A DNA stretch of 64,000 bases from Halioglobus maricola (lineage in GTDB: Bacteria > Pseudomonadota > Gammaproteobacteria > Pseudomonadales > Halieaceae). Positions 33,503 through 43,181 of this stretch are shown in pieces (within the stretch, counting starts at the first letter, position 1; each line of letters starts with the position of its first letter). Where the stretch lies: the NCBI RefSeq assembly GCF_009388985.1, contig NZ_CP036422.1, forward strand, positions 1,006,501 to 1,070,500, written 5' to 3'. The notes under the pieces are model-generated. The model saw only the letters and a list, made by a program, of their open reading frames with translations. It searched no databases and had not been told where the DNA came from. The position numbers were made by a program, and so were the translations under genes.

Positions 33503-35218
33503 TTAATCCACCGTGATCCGGTTGGCTTCTTCCAGGCTGATAAAGCCTTGCGCTACCTTGCGCAGGGCTGACACGCGAAGAGTATTAAACCCTTCCTCGC
33601 TGGCCTGGTCCTGGATTTGAAGTGAATTCCCTTCTTCCATGATGATCCGCGCGATCGCAGGAGTGATTCTTACGACCTCGTATACGCCGACACGGCCTTT
33701 GTAGCCGTCCTGGCAAATGCTACAGCCCACCGCTTTCTTGATGGTGGCTCCCGACAACATTGCGTCGGTAAAACCCTGTTTGATCAGTACATCATGAGGT
33801 ACGTCATCGGCGGGTTCTGCGCACTCCTTGCACAGCCGGCGCGCCAGTCGCTGGGCAATAATCAGATCGACAGATGTCGCGACGTTAAACGCCGGCACGC
33901 CCATGTTCAACATACGGGTGACGGTCTCGGCCGCGCTATTGGTGTGCAACGTGGAGAGTACCAGGTGACCCGTCTGGGCTGCCTTAATGGCTATCTCCGC
34001 CGTTTCCAGATCGCGAATCTCACCTACCATGATGATGTCCGGATCCTGACGCAGGAAAGAACGCAATGCCTCGGCGAAATTAAGGCCAACTTTGGGGTTT
34101 ACATGAACCTGGTTGATACCCTCGAGGTTGATCTCCACGGGATCTTCCGCGGTGGAAATATTGCGCTCTGCGGTGTTCAGAATATTGAGGCCGGTATACA
34201 GCGATACGGTTTTACCCGAACCAGTGGGGCCTGTGACCAGAATCATGCCCTGAGGCTGATTCAAGGCCTTCAGATACATCTGTTTCTGTTCGTCCTCATA
34301 GCCAAGCGCATCAATACCCAACTGGGCGCTGGTGGGGTCGAGGATACGCAGTACGATCTTTTCACCGAACAGCGTCGGCAGGGTGTTAACACGGAAGTCG
34401 ATGGCCCGATTGCGCGACAGTTTCATCTGGATGCGCCCGTCCTGGGGCACTCGCCGCTCGGAAATGTCCATCTGCGACATGACTTTGAGGCGCGCTGCGA
34501 GGCGGTGCGACAGGTTGCGTGGTGGCTTGACCATCTCGCGCAATACGCCGTCGGTGCGAAAACGCACTCTGTAGCTGTTCTCGTAGGGCTCGAAGTGAAT
34601 ATCCGAAGCGCCCTGTTTGATGGCGTCGATCAGAACCTTGTTGACGAAACGTACGATGGGGGTTTCATCGAGATCACTGCCTTCGTCGTCATCACTGCTC
34701 TCGCCGGTTGAGACGTCGATACCCTCAAGATCGGCGGAATCCAAATCGTCCAGGCCATCGGACAGGGAGTCCTGCATTTCGACCCAGCTAGAGATCATCT
34801 TGCTGAGGGTTTGCTCCTCCAGCAGGACCGCGTCGGTGTTGACCCCGGTGTGGAATTTGATTTCGTCCAGCGCGGCCAGGTTGGTCGGGTCGGAGACAGC
34901 AATGAACAGGCGGTTGCCGCGGCGATAAAGTGGCAGGGCGTGGTGTTTGGTGACGAGCTCGACATCTACCAGGCCAACCGGAATGTTGGCTGTGTCGAAG
35001 CACTCGGTGTCAAACTGTGGGACACCGAATTCCTGGGATGCCACCTCAGCGAGGCGGTGCCCATCTACATTTTGTTTTTCGACCAGGAATTGCACAAAGT
35101 GCATCTGTTCCATAGATGCACTGCGCTGGGCCTCTGCCGCTGCCTCGGCGGATATCATCCCCTCGGCGACAAGCCGGCCCGCAAGGCCACTCAGTTGCCC
35201 GATGGCTTTGTCGTTCAT
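33503..35218 (-). CDS. pilB: Type IV pilus assembly ATPase PilB
   Basis: Hexameric extension motor. The 571 residues comprise an N-terminal MshEN-like domain (residues about 1-150; such domains can bind c-di-GMP), an acidic linker, and the ATPase with Walker A GPTGSGKT, the Asp box, Walker B and His boxes (LSTLHTNSAAETVTRM). A zinc tetracysteine motif is present (CKEC and CSIC). First gene of the pilB-pilC-pilD-coaE group, divergent from pilA. Confidence 0.97.
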   Translation of the reverse strand: MNDKAIGQLSGLAGRLVAEGMISAEAAAEAQRSASMEQMHFVQFLVEKQNVDGHRLAEVASQEFGVPQFDTECFDTANIPVGLVDVELVTKHHALPLYRRGNRLFIAVSDPTNLAALDEIKFHTGVNTDAVLLEEQTLSKMISSWVEMQDSLSDGLDDLDSADLEGIDVSTGESSDDDEGSDLDETPIVRFVNKVLIDAIKQGASDIHFEPYENSYRVRFRTDGVLREMVKPPRNLSHRLAARLKVMSQMDISERRVPQDGRIQMKLSRNRAIDFRVNTLPTLFGEKIVLRILDPTSAQLGIDALGYEDEQKQMYLKALNQPQGMILVTGPTGSGKTVSLYTGLNILNTAERNISTAEDPVEINLEGINQVHVNPKVGLNFAEALRSFLRQDPDIIMVGEIRDLETAEIAIKAAQTGHLVLSTLHTNSAAETVTRMLNMGVPAFNVATSVDLIIAQRLARRLCKECAEPADDVPHDVLIKQGFTDAMLSGATIKKAVGCSICQDGYKGRVGVYEVVRITPAIARIIMEEGNSLQIQDQASEEGFNTLRVSALRKVAQGFISLEEANRITVD

Positions 35219-35645: not shown

Positions 35646-36131
35646 ATGAACATTCAAAAGAAAGCTCAACAGGGTTTTACCTTGATCGAACTGATGATCG
35701 TCATCGCGATCATCGGTATTCTGGCTGCCATCGCGCTGCCTGCCTACCAGGATTACACTATCCGCGCCAAGATGTCTGAGCCTATGGCTTATATGTCCGA
35801 GCTGAAGACCAGTATCACTGAATATTACTCAGCGACTGGTCGTCTGCCAACCGATGACGCCCAAGCGGGTGTTGGCGATGCTCCCAGAACGGATATCACC
35901 GACACAGTATCTTACGATGCGACCAATGCCCCACTGATCTATGCGAACGTTGTGGGTTCAGTATTCCCTGACGGCAATGCGAGATACTTTGTACTTTCCG
36001 GTGTCACCGTTGGCGCTGAGCGTGAGATTCGCTGGACTTGCAAGCCTTTTGCTGCCACTCCTCCTGGTGGCGCAGCGAGCAATGACTTCCAAAGCGACAC
36101 TAACTGGCTGCCAGCTACCTGCCGTGGCTAA
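35646..36131 (+). CDS. pilA: Type IV major pilin PilA
   Basis: Main structural subunit of type IV pili. The 161-residue prepilin has a short positive leader ([10 protein letters not shown]) cut by PilD before Phe, then the hydrophobic N-helix [20 protein letters not shown] with Glu5. The C-terminal disulfide loop is likely between the Cys of WTCKP and that of PATCRG. AGGGA ribosome site. Abundant Ser/Thr in the globular part gives possible O-glycan sites; the C-terminus is Gly, not the terminal Ser used by TfpO-type modification. Followed by its own terminator. Confidence 0.96.
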
Positions 36132-36150
36132 TTAGCCGTCTGGTACTGAA

Positions 36151-36176
36151 AAGCCCGGCATTAGCCGGGCTTTTTT
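36151..36176 (+). terminator. Intrinsic terminator of pilA
   Basis: Perfect 9-bp stem AAGCCCGGC / GCCGGGCTT, loop ATTA, followed by six T residues. It implies that pilA is mostly monocistronic and that the downstream glycosyltransferase genes are expressed by read-through or from their own promoter. Confidence 0.93.
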
Positions 36177-36224
36177 GTATCTGCATCAAAAAACTGTGGC
36201 ATCATCCGCTATCAGCCTCACCGT

Positions 36225-38186
36225 TTGCCCGATCTGAATTTGAGTCGATATATCCGTTCGCTTCCTTACGCAGCGCTCTTTGCGATGCTCCTGCTCGGCC
36301 TTGGGATCTATTGCCATGGCAGCGGGGACTATTGGTTGTACGATGACCACCCGAATCTGGTCAACAATCCCGACCTGCAGTTAGATGGCAGCGAGTTGGA
36401 TGATTGGCGCACAGCAGCGCTCAGTTCAGGTTCAGGGCCGCTCCGCCGTCCAGTCGCGATGATCAGCTTCGCTGCGAACGCAGTCGTCAGCGGAGAGCTT
36501 GACGCCCCGATTCTTAAAATGACCAATGTTGTGATACACGCATTGGCTGTGCTTGCGCTGTGGGGCTTCTTCTCTACTCTGTTGCGTTACTTCCGAAGCT
36601 CCGGAAACAGGGAGTGGGCGCCATGGTTGGCCCTTGCTGCCGCCGTCGCCTGGGGTTTACACCCTCTGCATGTCTCAACCGTTCTCTACCCGGTGCAGCG
36701 GATGGCACAGCTCTCTGCGCTGTTTGTGATCACGGGTCTCTGGTTGTTTGCCTATTACCGCAATCGCTGGTCAGAATCCGGGGGCACTCCAGGCGAAGTG
36801 ATAGCAGCCGCGCTGTGGCTTGGGCTGATTACAGCTTGTGCCGTGCTATCAAAAGAAAATGGCATTCTGTTACTTTGGATGATGGCTGCGCTCGAATTTG
36901 CTGTCTATCGCGGCCGGTGGCGGGGGCACGATCTTCCCTGGTTGCGCAGGTGCGCAGCGACGGCAGTAGTGGTTCCTGCGCTGGTACTTTTAGCGGTTTT
37001 TGCTGTGGCCCCGGATTGGCTTGTGTCTCGCTACAGCATGCGCGAGTTTGACCTGTATGAACGAGTGCAGACGCAATTGCGCCTCCTGTGGATCTATCTG
37101 AGATGGTTGCTGCTCCCTGATATTACTCAGTACGGACTTCATCACGATGCCATTACCTGGTCTCGCACACTGTTCAATCCGGTGACGACGGTATTGGCGT
37201 TGCTGGCCTGGGTTGGCATGCTTCTCACAGCCCTGTGGAAGCGACGCGAGCATCCGCTGTTTTTACTGGCGGTCTTGTTTTATCTGGTGGGTCACAGCAT
37301 GGAGTCTTCTGTTTGGCCTTTGCTGATGGTTTTCGAGCACCGCAACTATCTGCCGGGCATTGGCGTATATCTGGCGTTGATGATTGGCCTCGTTGGAGCA
37401 TTGCAAAGGAGTCAAGCAAAGCATCCTGTGCTCCCCATATTGTTTCTTCCGCTTGTTCTGCTCGCGATGCTTGCGCTGCGAGTGAACACGTGGTCTTCCC
37501 AGGATGGCCTGGGTGAAGCTGGGGTTCGACATCATCCTGATTCATCGCTCTCGCATTATGTCTATGCCAATGACCAGTTACGCGATGCTGAATCGGGCGC
37601 GGCATACGCTGAGCATGTCGAGGCTGTGACGCTCGCACGCTATCACTTCGAGCAGGCTTCGCGGCTGGATCCACGCGACCTCGGTGCGCTGGTAACACTG
37701 CATCAGTTGGATTCCACGTATTTTTCCGGCTTGGCGAATAGAACCGACTGGCTGGCAAAAATAGAGCAGATCCTGATCGCAGCGCCACTCAGTAAAAAAG
37801 ACGCTGCGGCATTGGAGAACCTTATGTCGTGTCTTGGCGACGACGGTTGCGCAGGGGGTGAGGTGGCCTATCGGAGGGTTTCCGATCTACTCGCTTCGCG
37901 CTTTCCACGATGGAGTCAGCGCTACGTGCTGGAGCATGTTTACGCGACCAAGTCGCAGGTGTCGGCTGTGGACCGTATTCCGATCTTGCAGGCAGGTTTG
38001 GCGCAGCACCCCGGGCATGTGACGCTGCTCCACAAAGCGCTTGCAGACGCTGTGGAAATCGGTGATATGGGTCTGGTTTATGATCTTGCTCTGCAGTTGT
38101 ACCAGGCCGACCCTATGCGTTACCAGCTGTCGCGTATGACGACGCTATTTCCTGCCACTGTGCGTTTAGAGCATCGGGGGAACTGA
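36225..38186 (+). CDS. TMTC-like GT-C membrane glycosyltransferase with C-terminal repeat domain (copy 1)
   Basis: Predicted polytopic membrane protein of 653 residues with about ten hydrophobic helices and a soluble C-terminal third. I recognise the layout of eukaryotic TMTC O-mannosyltransferases: a double acidic motif in the first periplasmic loop (YDDHPNLVNNPDL, Asp40-Asp41), a GPLRRPVAM stretch, the HPLHVSTVLYPVQRMAQLSA block, LSKENGI, and EHRNYLPGIG near the end of the membrane part. The C-terminal part (from about 430) is helical and TPR-like. It likely transfers a sugar from a polyprenyl-phosphate donor to an exported acceptor, perhaps PilA. The start is weak: TTG 36225, alternative TTG 36240, no clear ribosome site. 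Function is inference. Confidence 0.75.
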   Translation: MPDLNLSRYIRSLPYAALFAMLLLGLGIYCHGSGDYWLYDDHPNLVNNPDLQLDGSELDDWRTAALSSGSGPLRRPVAMISFAANAVVSGELDAPILKMTNVVIHALAVLALWGFFSTLLRYFRSSGNREWAPWLALAAAVAWGLHPLHVSTVLYPVQRMAQLSALFVITGLWLFAYYRNRWSESGGTPGEVIAAALWLGLITACAVLSKENGILLLWMMAALEFAVYRGRWRGHDLPWLRRCAATAVVVPALVLLAVFAVAPDWLVSRYSMREFDLYERVQTQLRLLWIYLRWLLLPDITQYGLHHDAITWSRTLFNPVTTVLALLAWVGMLLTALWKRREHPLFLLAVLFYLVGHSMESSVWPLLMVFEHRNYLPGIGVYLALMIGLVGALQRSQAKHPVLPILFLPLVLLAMLALRVNTWSSQDGLGEAGVRHHPDSSLSHYVYANDQLRDAESGAAYAEHVEAVTLARYHFEQASRLDPRDLGALVTLHQLDSTYFSGLANRTDWLAKIEQILIAAPLSKKDAAALENLMSCLGDDGCAGGEVAYRRVSDLLASRFPRWSQRYVLEHVYATKSQVSAVDRIPILQAGLAQHPGHVTLLHKALADAVEIGDMGLVYDLALQLYQADPMRYQLSRMTTLFPATVRLEHRGN

Positions 38187-38187
38187 G

Positions 38188-40068
38188 TTGCGCCTGCGTT
38201 TCCTGCCTCTGCTGATATTCGTGCTGTTGCTTGCAGCGATCACCTGGGCCTATCTACCCGGAGTAGCTGGGCCCACATTGCTGGACGACCACAGTAGCCT
38301 GAATGCACTGGTCGGACTGGAAGACAACCCCGAGTTTGGCATTGAGTATATTCAGGGCGAGCAATCAGGACCCCTGGGCAGACCCGTGGCAATGTGGACA
38401 TTTGTCGCCGAAAGGATCTACCTGGGCAGCGACATTGCCGTCACCAAGTCGGTCAACATTTCAATACACCTGTTAAACGGTGTTCTCGTGGCCTGGCTCC
38501 TGCTGTTGATGTTCAAACCATTGCAGTTGTCGGGTGCGGGCTACCTGGCTGTGGTATTGGCTGGGATCTGGTTGGCTTCGCCATTGTGGGTCAGCAGTGT
38601 GTTGTATGCCGTGCAGCGAATGGCGTTGCTGTCGACCAGTTTCATGCTGATGGCCCTGGTGAGCTATTGCTACTGTCGCGGCGTTTTGCATCGACCAGTA
38701 CAGTTTTTTGTGACACTGGCGGTGCCGCTTGTATTTGTCCTGCTGGGCGTTTTCACCAAGGAGAACGCCATAGTCGTGATACCCATAATGCTTGTGTTGG
38801 AGCTGTTCTGGTTCCAATGCCGTGATCACCGCGGTGCCCAACTGTCCTGGTTCAAGCGAGGTGTCATTTTCTCAATTTTCATTGGTGCCGTTGCGCTTAG
38901 CCTGGCATTCGTGCTGAGTTTGGAGGGTATTGCTGCTTCCTATCGAGGTCGGGATTTCACGTTACCTGAGCGCTTGATGACTGAGGCGAGAGTGCTCTGG
39001 GACTATGTGCTGCAATTTGTATGGCCCGAGGTCGGGCGGATGGGGATTTACCACGACGACTTCATCATTTCCCGGTCGCTGTGGGAACCCGCCACCACAC
39101 TGCCGGCCATACTTGCCTGGGTTGGCGTTGGAGCCGCGACGTTAGTGCTCGGCCTGGGTCCGTGGCGATGGGGCAAGCTGGTCGCCCTGGTGCCCGCCTG
39201 GTATATGCTCGGTCATGCAGTGGAATCGACGGTCCTGCCTTTGGAGTTGTACTTCGAGCACCGCAACTACTTTCCCGCGATAGGCTTACTACTGGCTCCC
39301 GCCCTTTTGTACGGCAAAGCTGTGCGGGTCTGGCCGGAGACGGCCAGACCTCTGTTGGTTTATGCAGGATTGGCGGCAGGTTGCCTGTTGTTCCTGACCA
39401 GCTCCCAGGCGCAGGTATGGTCCAGTAGGCCGCTGCTGGCGTTTAATCATGTCTCCGGACACCCAGATTCTTTTCGTGCCAACACTGATATGGCCGTCAT
39501 CCTTGCGAGTCTGGGCGACTATGAGCGCGCTGCGGAATATTCTGAACGCGCAAGCGCGGTCAATCCACATCGTCGCAGTGGCGATTTTGGCGTTCGAAAT
39601 ATGGCACTGGCGTGCATGGCTAACGCCCGAGTTGAGGCCAAAGATATTGCGAGTCTGGGTGCAGAGGAGCGGCGCCCTCTCAGCTCATCGTTGGGCCTGG
39701 TAGTGCTGGTAAGGATGTTGGAGGAAGACCGCTGCCCGCGCTTTGATCGTTTCGCTTTTGCCGACCGCCTTGAAAGTCTTTACCTGGGCGAGGAGGCCAG
39801 TGCTCGGGGAAATCGTTCTGTGTATCTCGGGCTGGCGCTGTTGGAGAATGCCCTGCAGCGCTTTGAATACGCCGATCAGTACATAGATATCTATCTTGAG
39901 CTCCTGCCCGGTGACGTCAGGGCATTGCTCATGAAACTCCATTTTTCTGCAGCGATGCGAGATTCAGCGCAAGTGAAAAAGATCATCGCCCAATTGCAGC
40001 AACTGGATGCAGAAGGTAAATTGACTGAACGCCAACGCCAGACACTGGCCCTCTATCTGGAGAACTAA
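38188..40068 (+). CDS. TMTC-like GT-C membrane glycosyltransferase with TPR domain (copy 2)
   Basis: Second member of the same family, 626 residues, one base after the previous stop; TTG start with GGGGGA seven bases upstream. Same motif order as copy 1: LLDDHSSLNALVGLEDNP (Asp33-Asp34), GPLGRPVAMWTF, LASPLWVSSVLYAVQRMALLS, FTKENAI and EHRNYFPAIG. The C-terminal region has a clear TPR-type repeat (ANTDMAVILASLGDYERAAE). Sequence has diverged strongly from copy 1 outside the motifs, so the two may use different acceptors or act as a heteromer. Role in glycosylation of pilin or other surface proteins is inferred from neighbours. Confidence 0.75.
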   Translation: MRLRFLPLLIFVLLLAAITWAYLPGVAGPTLLDDHSSLNALVGLEDNPEFGIEYIQGEQSGPLGRPVAMWTFVAERIYLGSDIAVTKSVNISIHLLNGVLVAWLLLLMFKPLQLSGAGYLAVVLAGIWLASPLWVSSVLYAVQRMALLSTSFMLMALVSYCYCRGVLHRPVQFFVTLAVPLVFVLLGVFTKENAIVVIPIMLVLELFWFQCRDHRGAQLSWFKRGVIFSIFIGAVALSLAFVLSLEGIAASYRGRDFTLPERLMTEARVLWDYVLQFVWPEVGRMGIYHDDFIISRSLWEPATTLPAILAWVGVGAATLVLGLGPWRWGKLVALVPAWYMLGHAVESTVLPLELYFEHRNYFPAIGLLLAPALLYGKAVRVWPETARPLLVYAGLAAGCLLFLTSSQAQVWSSRPLLAFNHVSGHPDSFRANTDMAVILASLGDYERAAEYSERASAVNPHRRSGDFGVRNMALACMANARVEAKDIASLGAEERRPLSSSLGLVVLVRMLEEDRCPRFDRFAFADRLESLYLGEEASARGNRSVYLGLALLENALQRFEYADQYIDIYLELLPGDVRALLMKLHFSAAMRDSAQVKKIIAQLQQLDAEGKLTERQRQTLALYLEN

Positions 40069-40071
40069 TAC

Positions 40072-40944
40072 GTGGATTTTTCCATCGTTATACCTGCCAA
40101 GGACGAAGAGCTGGGCCTGGCGAAAACGCTGCCGCTCTTGCGCGAGCACTATCCGGAAGCGGAGGTGGTGGTTGTTAATGACGGCTCTACCGACAACACA
40201 CTGCAAGTGTGTGAAGAGTATGGTGTCAAGGTGGTGACTCACCCGTACCCCAAGGGCAATGGTGCTGCGATCAAGTCGGGCGCGCGTGCTGCGAACGGCA
40301 AATATATCGTGTTTATGGACGGTGACGGGCAACATAACCCGGCCGATATTGAGCGCCTGTTGTACAAGCTGGAAGAAGGTTACGACATGGTCGTCGGTGC
40401 TCGAGGAGGGCGCGAAGACCAGGCAAATATTGCGCGCTGGAGCGCTAATAGCCTCTATAACTGGCTTGCCAGCTGGATGGTAAATCGTCGTATTGATGAT
40501 CTTACCTCGGGGTTTCGTGCGGTGAACCGGAAGAAGTTTCTCGGTTTTCTCTACCTGCTTCCCAACGGTTTTAGTTACCCCACCACGTCGACCATGGCAT
40601 TTTTCCGCGCAGGTTATTCGGTGGGTTTTGTCCCGATCTCTGTCGCCCCCCGGTTGGGGAAAAGCCACATTAGCCTGGTGCGGGACGGGGTGCGCTTCTT
40701 CCTGATCATTTTCAAGATAGGCACATTGTATTCGCCGCTAAAGGTCTATTTCCCGATGTCGCTGCTGGTTTCGGGGATGGGCGTGTTGAACTACTTGATG
40801 GGCAGTCTTACGTCTGGGGGTTGGCGGTTCACGAATATGAGCACGCTGCTGATTCTCGCTGGCATGGTGATGTTCTTGATGGGGCTGCTCGCAGAGCAGC
40901 TCACCAACTTGCAGTACAAGGACGCGGTCGAGGAAGAGGACTGA
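40072..40944 (+). CDS. GT2 glycosyltransferase, dolichyl-phosphate-mannose-synthase type, membrane-bound
   Basis: Family 2 glycosyltransferase of 290 residues predicted to charge a polyprenyl phosphate carrier with a sugar at the cytoplasmic face. The GT-A fold shows FSIVIPAKDEELGLAKTL, VVNDGSTDNT, and the DxD metal motif in FMDGDGQHNPADIERLL, then a DLTSGFRAVNRKKFLGF segment as in DPM1/GtrB-like enzymes. Two C-terminal transmembrane helices (about 225-245 and 255-280). GTG start four bases after copy 2, with GGAG upstream. It would supply the donor lipid for the two adjacent GT-C proteins. The sugar cannot be told from sequence. Confidence 0.88.
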   Translation: MDFSIVIPAKDEELGLAKTLPLLREHYPEAEVVVVNDGSTDNTLQVCEEYGVKVVTHPYPKGNGAAIKSGARAANGKYIVFMDGDGQHNPADIERLLYKLEEGYDMVVGARGGREDQANIARWSANSLYNWLASWMVNRRIDDLTSGFRAVNRKKFLGFLYLLPNGFSYPTTSTMAFFRAGYSVGFVPISVAPRLGKSHISLVRDGVRFFLIIFKIGTLYSPLKVYFPMSLLVSGMGVLNYLMGSLTSGGWRFTNMSTLLILAGMVMFLMGLLAEQLTNLQYKDAVEEED

Positions 40945-41000: not shown

Positions 41001-43181
41001 TCAGGCGCCGTACTTGGCCTTGGCTTCTTTGCGTCGTGCGTGCAGCACCGGCTCTGTGTAACCGCTTGGCTGTTCTTTGCCCAGAAATACCAGATCGCAA
41101 GCGGCCTGGAATGCCACGTTGTCATCGAAGTTTGGTGCCATCTTTCGATACGCCGGGTCGCCGGCATTCTGCTCGTCAACCACAGCAGCCATCCGTTCAA
41201 GAGTTTCGCGTACCTGCTCTTCACTGCACACCCCGTGGCGCAGCCAGTTGGCGAGGTGCTGGCTGGAAATGCGCAGGGTGGCCCTGTCCTCCATCAGTCC
41301 TACATTGTTGATGTCCGGAACCTTGGAGCAACCAACCCCCTGATCTACCCAGCGCACCACGTAGCCAAGAATGCCCTGGGCGTTGTTGTCGAGCTCGCGT
41401 TGGATGTCGTTCTCGGAAAGGCCCTCTGCCCCCTTGAGAGGGATGCTGAGAATGTCGTCCAGCGACGCAGTTGGCCGCGAGCTCAGCTCGCGCTGGCGCT
41501 CCGCCACATTGACATCATGGTAGTGCATGGCATGAAGCGTCGCTGCGGTGGGTGAGGGCACCCACGCTGTGTTGGCGCCGGCCAGAGGATGGCCTACTTT
41601 GGCGACCATCATCTCTGCCATCATGTCGGGCATCGCCCACATACCCTTGCCGATCTGGGCCTTACCTGGCAGGCCGCAGGCGAGCCCCTGATCAACATTC
41701 CAGTCTTCATAGGCGTTGATCCAGGGCTCCTGTTTCATGGCGCCTTTGGGTGTCATGGCTGCTGCTTCCATGCTGGTGTGGATCTCGTCACCGGTGCGGT
41801 CGAGGAAGCCGGTGTTGATAAAGACCAGACGATCCTGGGCAACCCGAATGCAGGCTTTCAGGTTGACGGTGGTACGGCGCTCCTCGTCCATGATGCCCAC
41901 CTTCAGGGTATTGCGCGCCAGGCCGAGTGCGTCTTCGATGCGGTCAAACAATTCGCAGGTAAACGCCACTTCTTCCGGTCCGTGCATTTTTGGCTTCACT
42001 ATGTAGACACTGCCCTCGCGTGAGTTGCGCGGCTGGTCGGCACCTTTGTTCAGATCGTGCATGGCGATCAGTGCGGTGAACATACCGTCCATGATCCCCT
42101 CGGGAATTTCGTTGCCGGCGCTGTCGAGGATCGCGTCGTTGGTCATCAAATGGCCGACATTGCGCACGAACAGCAGGCTGCGTCCTGGCAGGGTGATAGT
42201 CGATCCGTCCACGGTGTTGTAGTTGCGGTCCGGGTTAAGGGTGCGGGTCTGGGCCTGGCCACCTTTCTGGAAGCTGTCGGTGAGGTCGCCACGCATCAGC
42301 CCGAGCCAGTTGCTGTAAACAACGGCCTTGTCGTCTGCGTCGACGGCGGCGATGGAGTCTTCACAATCCTGGATAGTGGTCAGTGCCGCTTCGAGTGCCA
42401 GGTCTTTGATGCCGGCCTTGTCGGTCGCACCAATAGGGCTGCTGGGGTCGATCTGGATTTCGATATGCAGGCCGTTGTGGCAGAGCAGGATGGTTTCAGG
42501 CTGTTCAGGCGCGCCGGTGTAGCCGCGCAGTTGGCTTGTGTCGGCCAGAGTCGTTGTCGAGCCGTCTTCCAGGCTGACCTGCAACCCACCGTCGGCGATG
42601 GCGTAGGTGGTCGCGTTGCTGTGATCACCCTGCGCCAGCGGGCAATGTTTGTTGAGAAAGTCGCGAGCGTAGGCGATAACACGGTCACCACGCACAGGGT
42701 TGTAGCCACCTGCGCGTTCGGCCCCGCCCTCTTCTGAAATGACATCGGTACCGTAGAGCGCATCGTACAGGCTACCCCAGCGCGCATTCGCTGCATTGAG
42801 TGCGTAGCGGGCGTTCATAACTGGCACGACCAATTGGGGGCCCGCAAGTGTTGCGACTTCGGGGTCTACATTACGGGTTGTGATGGTGAAATCTTCGCCT
42901 TCAGGCAGCAGGTAGCCAATTTCTTGCAGGAAGGCCTTGTAGGCGGCGCGATCGTAATCTGCACCGGGGTTGTGTTGGTGCCAACTATCAATCTGCGTTT
43001 GTAGCTGATCGCGTTTGGCGAGCAAGTCGCGATTTTTCGGTGCGAGGTCGCGGAGAATGGATTCCAGGGCGGTCCAGAAATCTGCCGGTGCAATACCGGT
43101 TCCCGGGGCGATGTCAGTTTCCAGTAGTTGGTGAAGTACGGGTGCGATGTGCAGTTCGCCCACTTGAATTCGATCTGTCAT
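41001..43181 (-). CDS. glcB: Malate synthase G
   Basis: Condenses glyoxylate with acetyl-CoA to malate in the glyoxylate/glycolate route. The 726-residue product matches the long G isoform (A forms are about 530). Visible signatures: [15 protein letters not shown] with catalytic-site acidic residues, [50 protein letters not shown] and, near the C-terminus, [18 protein letters not shown] with its active-site Asp. AAGGA about ten bases before ATG. A GC-rich hairpin lies in its leader. Confidence 0.98.

Follow-up and report, generated by a model that had tools for sequence, protein, structure and literature searches.

TMTC1-4, which form family GT105 in CAZy, are O-mannosyltransferases of animal cadherins. 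In bacteria, the known pilin glycosyltransferases are mainly of the Wzy/WaaL type, and TfpW, a GT-C arabinosyltransferase, is the known GT-C exception. Pilin glycosylation protects Pseudomonas from pilus-specific phages. Type IV pilins are modified by TfpO/PilO, TfpM, PglS and PglL, several of which are encoded beside the pilin gene (PMC12645811). The gene for TfpW in the Pseudomonas aeruginosa group IV belongs to a pilin-accessory cassette that follows pilA (PMC11841053), and the enzyme uses a lipid-linked pentose donor (PMC11127046). Full-length prokaryotic homologues of the TMTC proteins have already been noted, and the motifs M1 (DD), M2 (SHKSYRP), M3 (RxD), M4 (KE) and M7 (E/R/Y) are described for the TMTC proteins (PMC7801869). 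An open-access literature search, with subscription papers and preprints outside its reach, returned no work that joins TMTC-like proteins with pilins.

The locus behind pilA and its distribution

The host genome, that of Halioglobus maricola, consists of one contig of 4.3 Mb. We analysed a stretch of 64,000 nucleotides of it, here called the window. ORF calls and Pfam matches in the window gave the order pilB, pilA, A, B, GT2 and glcB, with only pilB and glcB on the minus strand (Table 1). The divergent neighbour pilB places pilA in a type IVa pilus context. An earlier note on this DNA, made from the sequence alone, had described two tandem large membrane proteins and then a GT2 enzyme after pilA. 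This was borne out by the ORF coordinates, where A, B and GT2 nearly abut on the plus strand, and only the proposed start of the module at 36151 had to be given up, since it falls into the terminator hairpin of pilA and outside gene A. The start codon of protein A, a TTG, is uncertain. From reading the protein, we take the product of the last gene to be that of glcB. Upstream of the pil genes, the window carries an ordinary division and cell wall cluster (8044-29101; mraW to ftsA, lpxC, secA).

Table 1. Features of the pilA locus, in window coordinates.
Feature	Position	Strand	Basis or remark
pilB	33503..35218	-	T2SSE and MshEN domains; PilB model over cut-off
pilA, major type IVa pilin	35646..36131	+	Pfam N_methyl and Pilin (7.5e-11); C-terminus LPATCRG
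Rho-independent terminator, gap between pilA and accessory gene	36147..36177	+	12-bp hairpin
Protein A, TMTC-like GT-C, C-terminal TPR-like domain, 653 aa	36225..38186	+	Predicted fold and catalytic residues
Protein B, TMTC-like GT-C, C-terminal TPR-like domain, 626 aa	38188..40068	+	Predicted fold and catalytic residues
GT2, C-terminal membrane helices	40072..40944	+	Pfam Glycos_transf_2, 3.6e-33
glcB (malate synthase G, presumably)	41001..43181	-	Right border of the cassette, unrelated; same neighbour in relatives, cassette-free ones included

The hairpin directly 3' of pilA is GC-rich, reads AAAAGCCCGGC-ATTA-GCCGGGCTTTTTT and is followed by a T run. Its z-score against shuffled sequence was -5.96, and the same feature stands after pilA in 18 of 19 relatives. 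Pilin-accessory cassettes commonly have a terminator after the major pilin gene, and gene A lies directly behind pilA with this Rho-independent terminator between them, as in the published definition of such a cassette (PMC11841053). The terminator fits the reading of A-B-GT2 as a pilin-accessory cassette without proving it, since any pilA may carry one, and taken alone it does not discriminate.

The pilins themselves were compared as well. No enrichment of serine and threonine was found in cassette-linked pilins against the pilins of cassette-free relatives (p 0.32). The conserved PilA end LPANCRG was considered as a glycosylation signal and dropped; it is common to several pilins of cassette-free relatives, so that no acceptor site stands out. 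Extra pilin genes were observed around the cassette in some relatives (L042:5702-6181, L039:4255-4692, and L052 and L056 near 10.1 kb), which suggests pilin duplication or replacement at the cassette site.

Homologues of A and B were found in 56 of the 140 genomes of the window's bacterial family, nearly always as a tandem pair; in two Halieaceae genomes there is just one copy, of the B-like kind. Where the flanks were long enough, the family loci kept the order pilB, pilA, A, B, GT2. PilB scored over the family cut-off in 51 of the 56 carriers (Fisher 1.2e-8), and the five carriers without it are fragmented assemblies. In the cassette-free relatives L167 and L168, glcB stands directly after pilA. 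At this one site, the three genes A, B and GT2 have therefore been acquired or lost together, which ties them to each other and to pilA.

Beyond the family, 112 of the 369 sampled genomes of the window's class (about 30%) carry these proteins. In 23 of the 29 loci of the class survey, a same-strand pilin gene lay no more than 1.5 kb upstream, and four of the other six have a tandem homologue between the pilin and the gene. In the phylum survey, 15 of the 21 strong matches were linked to a pilin, whereas none of the seven weak, distant matches was (Fisher 1.9e-4). Both surveys together gave an upstream same-strand pilin within 1.5 kb in 38 of 50 loci, a fraction that holds for this subfamily and not for all TMTC-like proteins, since the loci surveyed were the best-scoring matches. 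In the survey flanks, a pilin on the opposite strand was never seen and a downstream pilin once. Carriers include Haliea, Parahaliea, Marinobacter, Microbulbifer, Lysobacter, Rhodanobacter, Undibacterium, Dechloromonas, Thiotrichaceae and one Acinetobacter. The link that the earlier note had drawn from one locus proved tight across genomes for the pilin and mostly held for the GT2 gene too, and the cassette arrangement is shared by many proteobacteria.

Mobile spread on plasmids or phages was also considered and dropped, as neither the plasmid nor the phage collection gave a match. A TMTC-like gene of the subfamily was observed in a contig labelled as a Klebsiella pneumoniae MAG (L120, CAMCQE010000004.1), which is probably mislabelled or mis-binned.

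Predicted fold and conserved residues

The structures of A and B were predicted with AlphaFold2, giving a pLDDT of 89.7 and a pTM of 0.89 for A and a pLDDT of 93.5 and a pTM of 0.92 for B. The models were compared with solved structures by VIA-align. The closest folds to B were Pmt4 and Pmt1-Pmt2 at a Z of about 19, with 321-355 residues aligned, followed by STT3/AglB (Z 18) and ArnT (Z 15). For A, AglB came closest, and then STT3, ArnT (Z 17.0) and Pmt4 (Z 16.9). Over both proteins, the membrane part aligned with PMT, STT3, AglB, PglB and ArnT at a Z of 13-19. The GT-C fold that had been proposed from the letters of the DNA was therefore recovered, with best Z values of 19.3 (B with Pmt4) and 18.1 (A with AglB), and at the level of the models A and B are confirmed as predicted members of the GT-C superfamily, of the PMT/STT3/ArnT type. 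The match came from VIA-align; the top ranks of Foldseek were mostly TPR proteins, and a sequence profile searched against solved structures found TPR proteins only, with no direct match to a GT-C enzyme. No Pfam or NCBIfam model covered the membrane part of A or B, and annotation therefore misses the family at present.

The last 200 or so residues of A and B match TPR proteins, in B by fold over residues 421-626 with a Z of about 10, and the Pfam TPR match in this part is weak. Among other TPR proteins, PilW also resembles this domain at moderate Z. The TPR array would be located in the extracytoplasmic space. Both A and B have paired cysteines in the domain. One cysteine of the pair is shared by 115 of 125 homologues, the second by 39 of 125 (A) or 76 of 125 (B). 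Such a pair would fit a periplasmic disulphide.

Conservation was scored over the 125 homologues, with residue numbers given for protein B. D33, R65, K191, E357-H358-R359, Y361 and W411 were conserved in all of them, and E192 and D290 in 99%. The catalytic aspartate of the first periplasmic loop, D33 in B and D40 in A, is the first residue of the DD motif (125/125), the second being kept in 116 of 125. These near-invariant residues correspond to the positions of GT-C enzymes that bind the metal, the lipid phosphate and the acceptor. The motifs DD, RPVAM, KEN and EHRNY are present in A as well as in B; their TMTC-like order, pointed out in the earlier note, was thus found in both proteins. Since both keep the catalytic residues, both are predicted to be active, and the idea that one of them is a dead paralogue was ruled out.

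Compared with the described TMTC motifs, the proteins contain M1, M4 and M7, the arginine of M7 being shifted by one position. Across the 125 homologues, M2 is reduced to R65-P66, and in place of the RxD of M3 the arginine R144 is kept with mostly A or T at position +2. The Pfam model TMTC_DUF1736 (PF08409) matched neither A nor B nor any other protein of the genome. It also failed to match five bacterial TMTC-like relatives that we fetched, which indicates that the model is narrow. An hhalign comparison of the A/B profile with bacterial TMTC-like proteins of the phylum survey that are not pilin-linked gave a probability of 100% and an E-value of 4e-38. In its wider meaning, covering the fold, the profile and most of the motifs, the label TMTC-like therefore applies. 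Two marks of the animal TMTCs, the DUF1736 signature and the acidic residue of RxD, are missing, and we do not claim membership in the animal family.

A and B are paralogues with 35% identity over the GT-C part. In a phylogenetic tree they formed two separate clades with 100% support each, and A grouped with proteins of other Gammaproteobacteria; this was a quick tree whose deep forks are uncertain. A recent tandem duplication is unsupported, given the separate clades. In two loci outside the family (L118, L129), three tandem TMTC-like paralogues of three clades were observed behind one pilin with a single GT2, which suggests distinct, non-redundant jobs. In another genome (G010), a further TMTC-like gene, the third, adjoins glcB (L050:7732-9507); it lies several kb away from the pilA cassette and has no orthologous GT2 beside it.

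For the GT2 protein, profile matches in the PDB were the GtrB-like sll0501 (6.5e-23), ArnC and the DPM synthase. Together with the Pfam match, this agrees with the DPM1/GtrB type that had been assigned to it, and the enzyme is predicted to be a polyprenyl-phosphate sugar synthase that loads one sugar. No flippase of the GtrA type (PF04138) was found in the locus or elsewhere in the genome. Outside the window's class, some loci lack an adjoining GT2 gene. Among these, the loci L172-L188 of the families f205 and f209 have a pilin and a TMTC-like gene; a close GT2 homologue was located elsewhere in two of the three f205 genomes searched, and f209 has distant ones only. In a further genome (G112), an island beside pilB (L166:1656-5750) takes the place that pilA and the cassette have in relatives. 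It encodes a GtrA flippase, a GT2, a methyltransferase, a GNAT acetyltransferase and a DegT aminotransferase, and is possibly another surface sugar system.

Candidate O-glycosylation of the pilin and other readings

We consider it probable, at roughly 0.78, that A-B-GT2 is a cassette for the O-glycosylation of the type IV pilin, in which a polyprenyl-phosphate sugar is used by a transferase of the TMTC/PMT type. At the cytoplasmic side of the membrane, GT2 would load undecaprenyl phosphate with one sugar taken from a nucleotide-sugar donor, and a flippase would move the lipid-linked sugar to the periplasmic side. There, A and B would transfer it at the membrane onto hydroxyl groups of PilA, with their periplasmic TPR-like domains possibly docking the pilin. 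Since A and B are old, distinct paralogues that are both predicted to be active, the two probably modify separate sites, lengthen the glycan in turn or work as a pair like Pmt1-Pmt2.

Within the glycosylation reading, we tentatively consider, at somewhat less than even odds, that one of the two is the pilin transferase and the second supplies an additional sugar or acts as its partner, such that a short glycan is made in the periplasm. The separate, well-supported clades of A and B, the two Halieaceae genomes with a single B-like copy and the loci with three paralogues and one GT2 speak for this division of labour. However, a heteromer or separate acceptor sites would fit equally well.

The substrate could instead be another envelope molecule, such as lipid A, the O-antigen or periplasmic proteins, with the GT-C transferases placed behind pilA for their expression. 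The close folds include that of the lipid A transferase ArnT, the TPR domains could bind many proteins, and the extra copy in G010 lies away from pilA at glcB and lacks a GT2. Yet the same-strand upstream pilin in 38 of the 50 loci, across classes and with none among the distant relatives, would hardly be kept by chance or shared expression alone, and we regard a non-pilin substrate as unlikely. That A and B have lost their enzymatic activity and serve as pilin chaperones or assembly factors on a GT-C scaffold, in a role like that of TfpY, is very improbable. In its favour are the TfpX/Y/Z accessory proteins, which are encoded behind pilA and have no known modifying action on the pilin (PMC11841053), and the likeness of the TPR-like part to PilW. 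Against it, A and B both keep the near-invariant GT-C catalytic set, and they are accompanied by a polyprenyl-phosphate sugar synthase.

Extending the pilin glycosylation reading to the whole subfamily, we think it fairly likely that these proteins represent an undescribed class of pilin-dedicated O-glycosyltransferases of the TMTC/PMT type that use a monosaccharide polyprenyl phosphate. In Gammaproteobacteria it would rank among the most common systems for modifying pilins, and it would extend to further classes of proteobacteria; specialised paralogues in tandem would build or place the pilin glycans. If so, the pilin would be the first probable substrate for bacterial TMTC-like proteins, and the cassettes could serve as single-substrate models for the poorly understood family of animal O-mannosyltransferases. 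It would further point to a wider occurrence of pilin glycosylation than has been documented.

Comparison with known glycosyltransferases

The solved folds closest to B are those of Pmt1, Pmt2 and Pmt4, with a Z of 19 over about 320-355 residues. The identity is only 8-11%, and A and B carry TPRs where the PMTs have the MIR domain. Neither the PMT nor the MIR domain of Pfam matched A or B, so that the likeness is one of fold alone. With TMTC1-4, A and B share a GT-C part followed by TPRs and the DD, KE and E-R-Y motifs in the same order. They differ in the absence of DUF1736, in having QRM for RxD, KEN for KE(T/Q) and EHRNY for ERxxY, and in their linkage to a pilin.

The three-component Gtr systems likewise combine a GT2 polyprenyl-phosphate sugar synthase with a GT-C enzyme that acts in the periplasm. 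Their acceptor is the O-antigen, whereas here it is probably the pilin, and GtrA is missing from the locus and the genome. TfpO/PilO, TfpM, PglS and PglL are oligosaccharyltransferases of the WaaL/Wzy type, in contrast to the predicted PMT/STT3/ArnT-type GT-C proteins A and B; no O-antigen ligase/Wzy_C or PglL_A domain was matched by Pfam in A, B or their relatives.

The earlier note had held the arrangement to be unlike those known. Within the open-access literature searched, this stands for a TMTC/PMT-type pair with its own GT2, but a GT-C pilin transferase beside pilA has its precedent in TfpW, and the A-B-GT2 arrangement is therefore not a new principle. Like TfpW, A and B would be GT-C enzymes in a cassette behind pilA. 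Compared by description only, they differ from TfpW in that they usually occur in tandem, carry TPR-like domains, are accompanied by a GT2 synthase of their own and keep the conserved order pilA-A-B-GT2.
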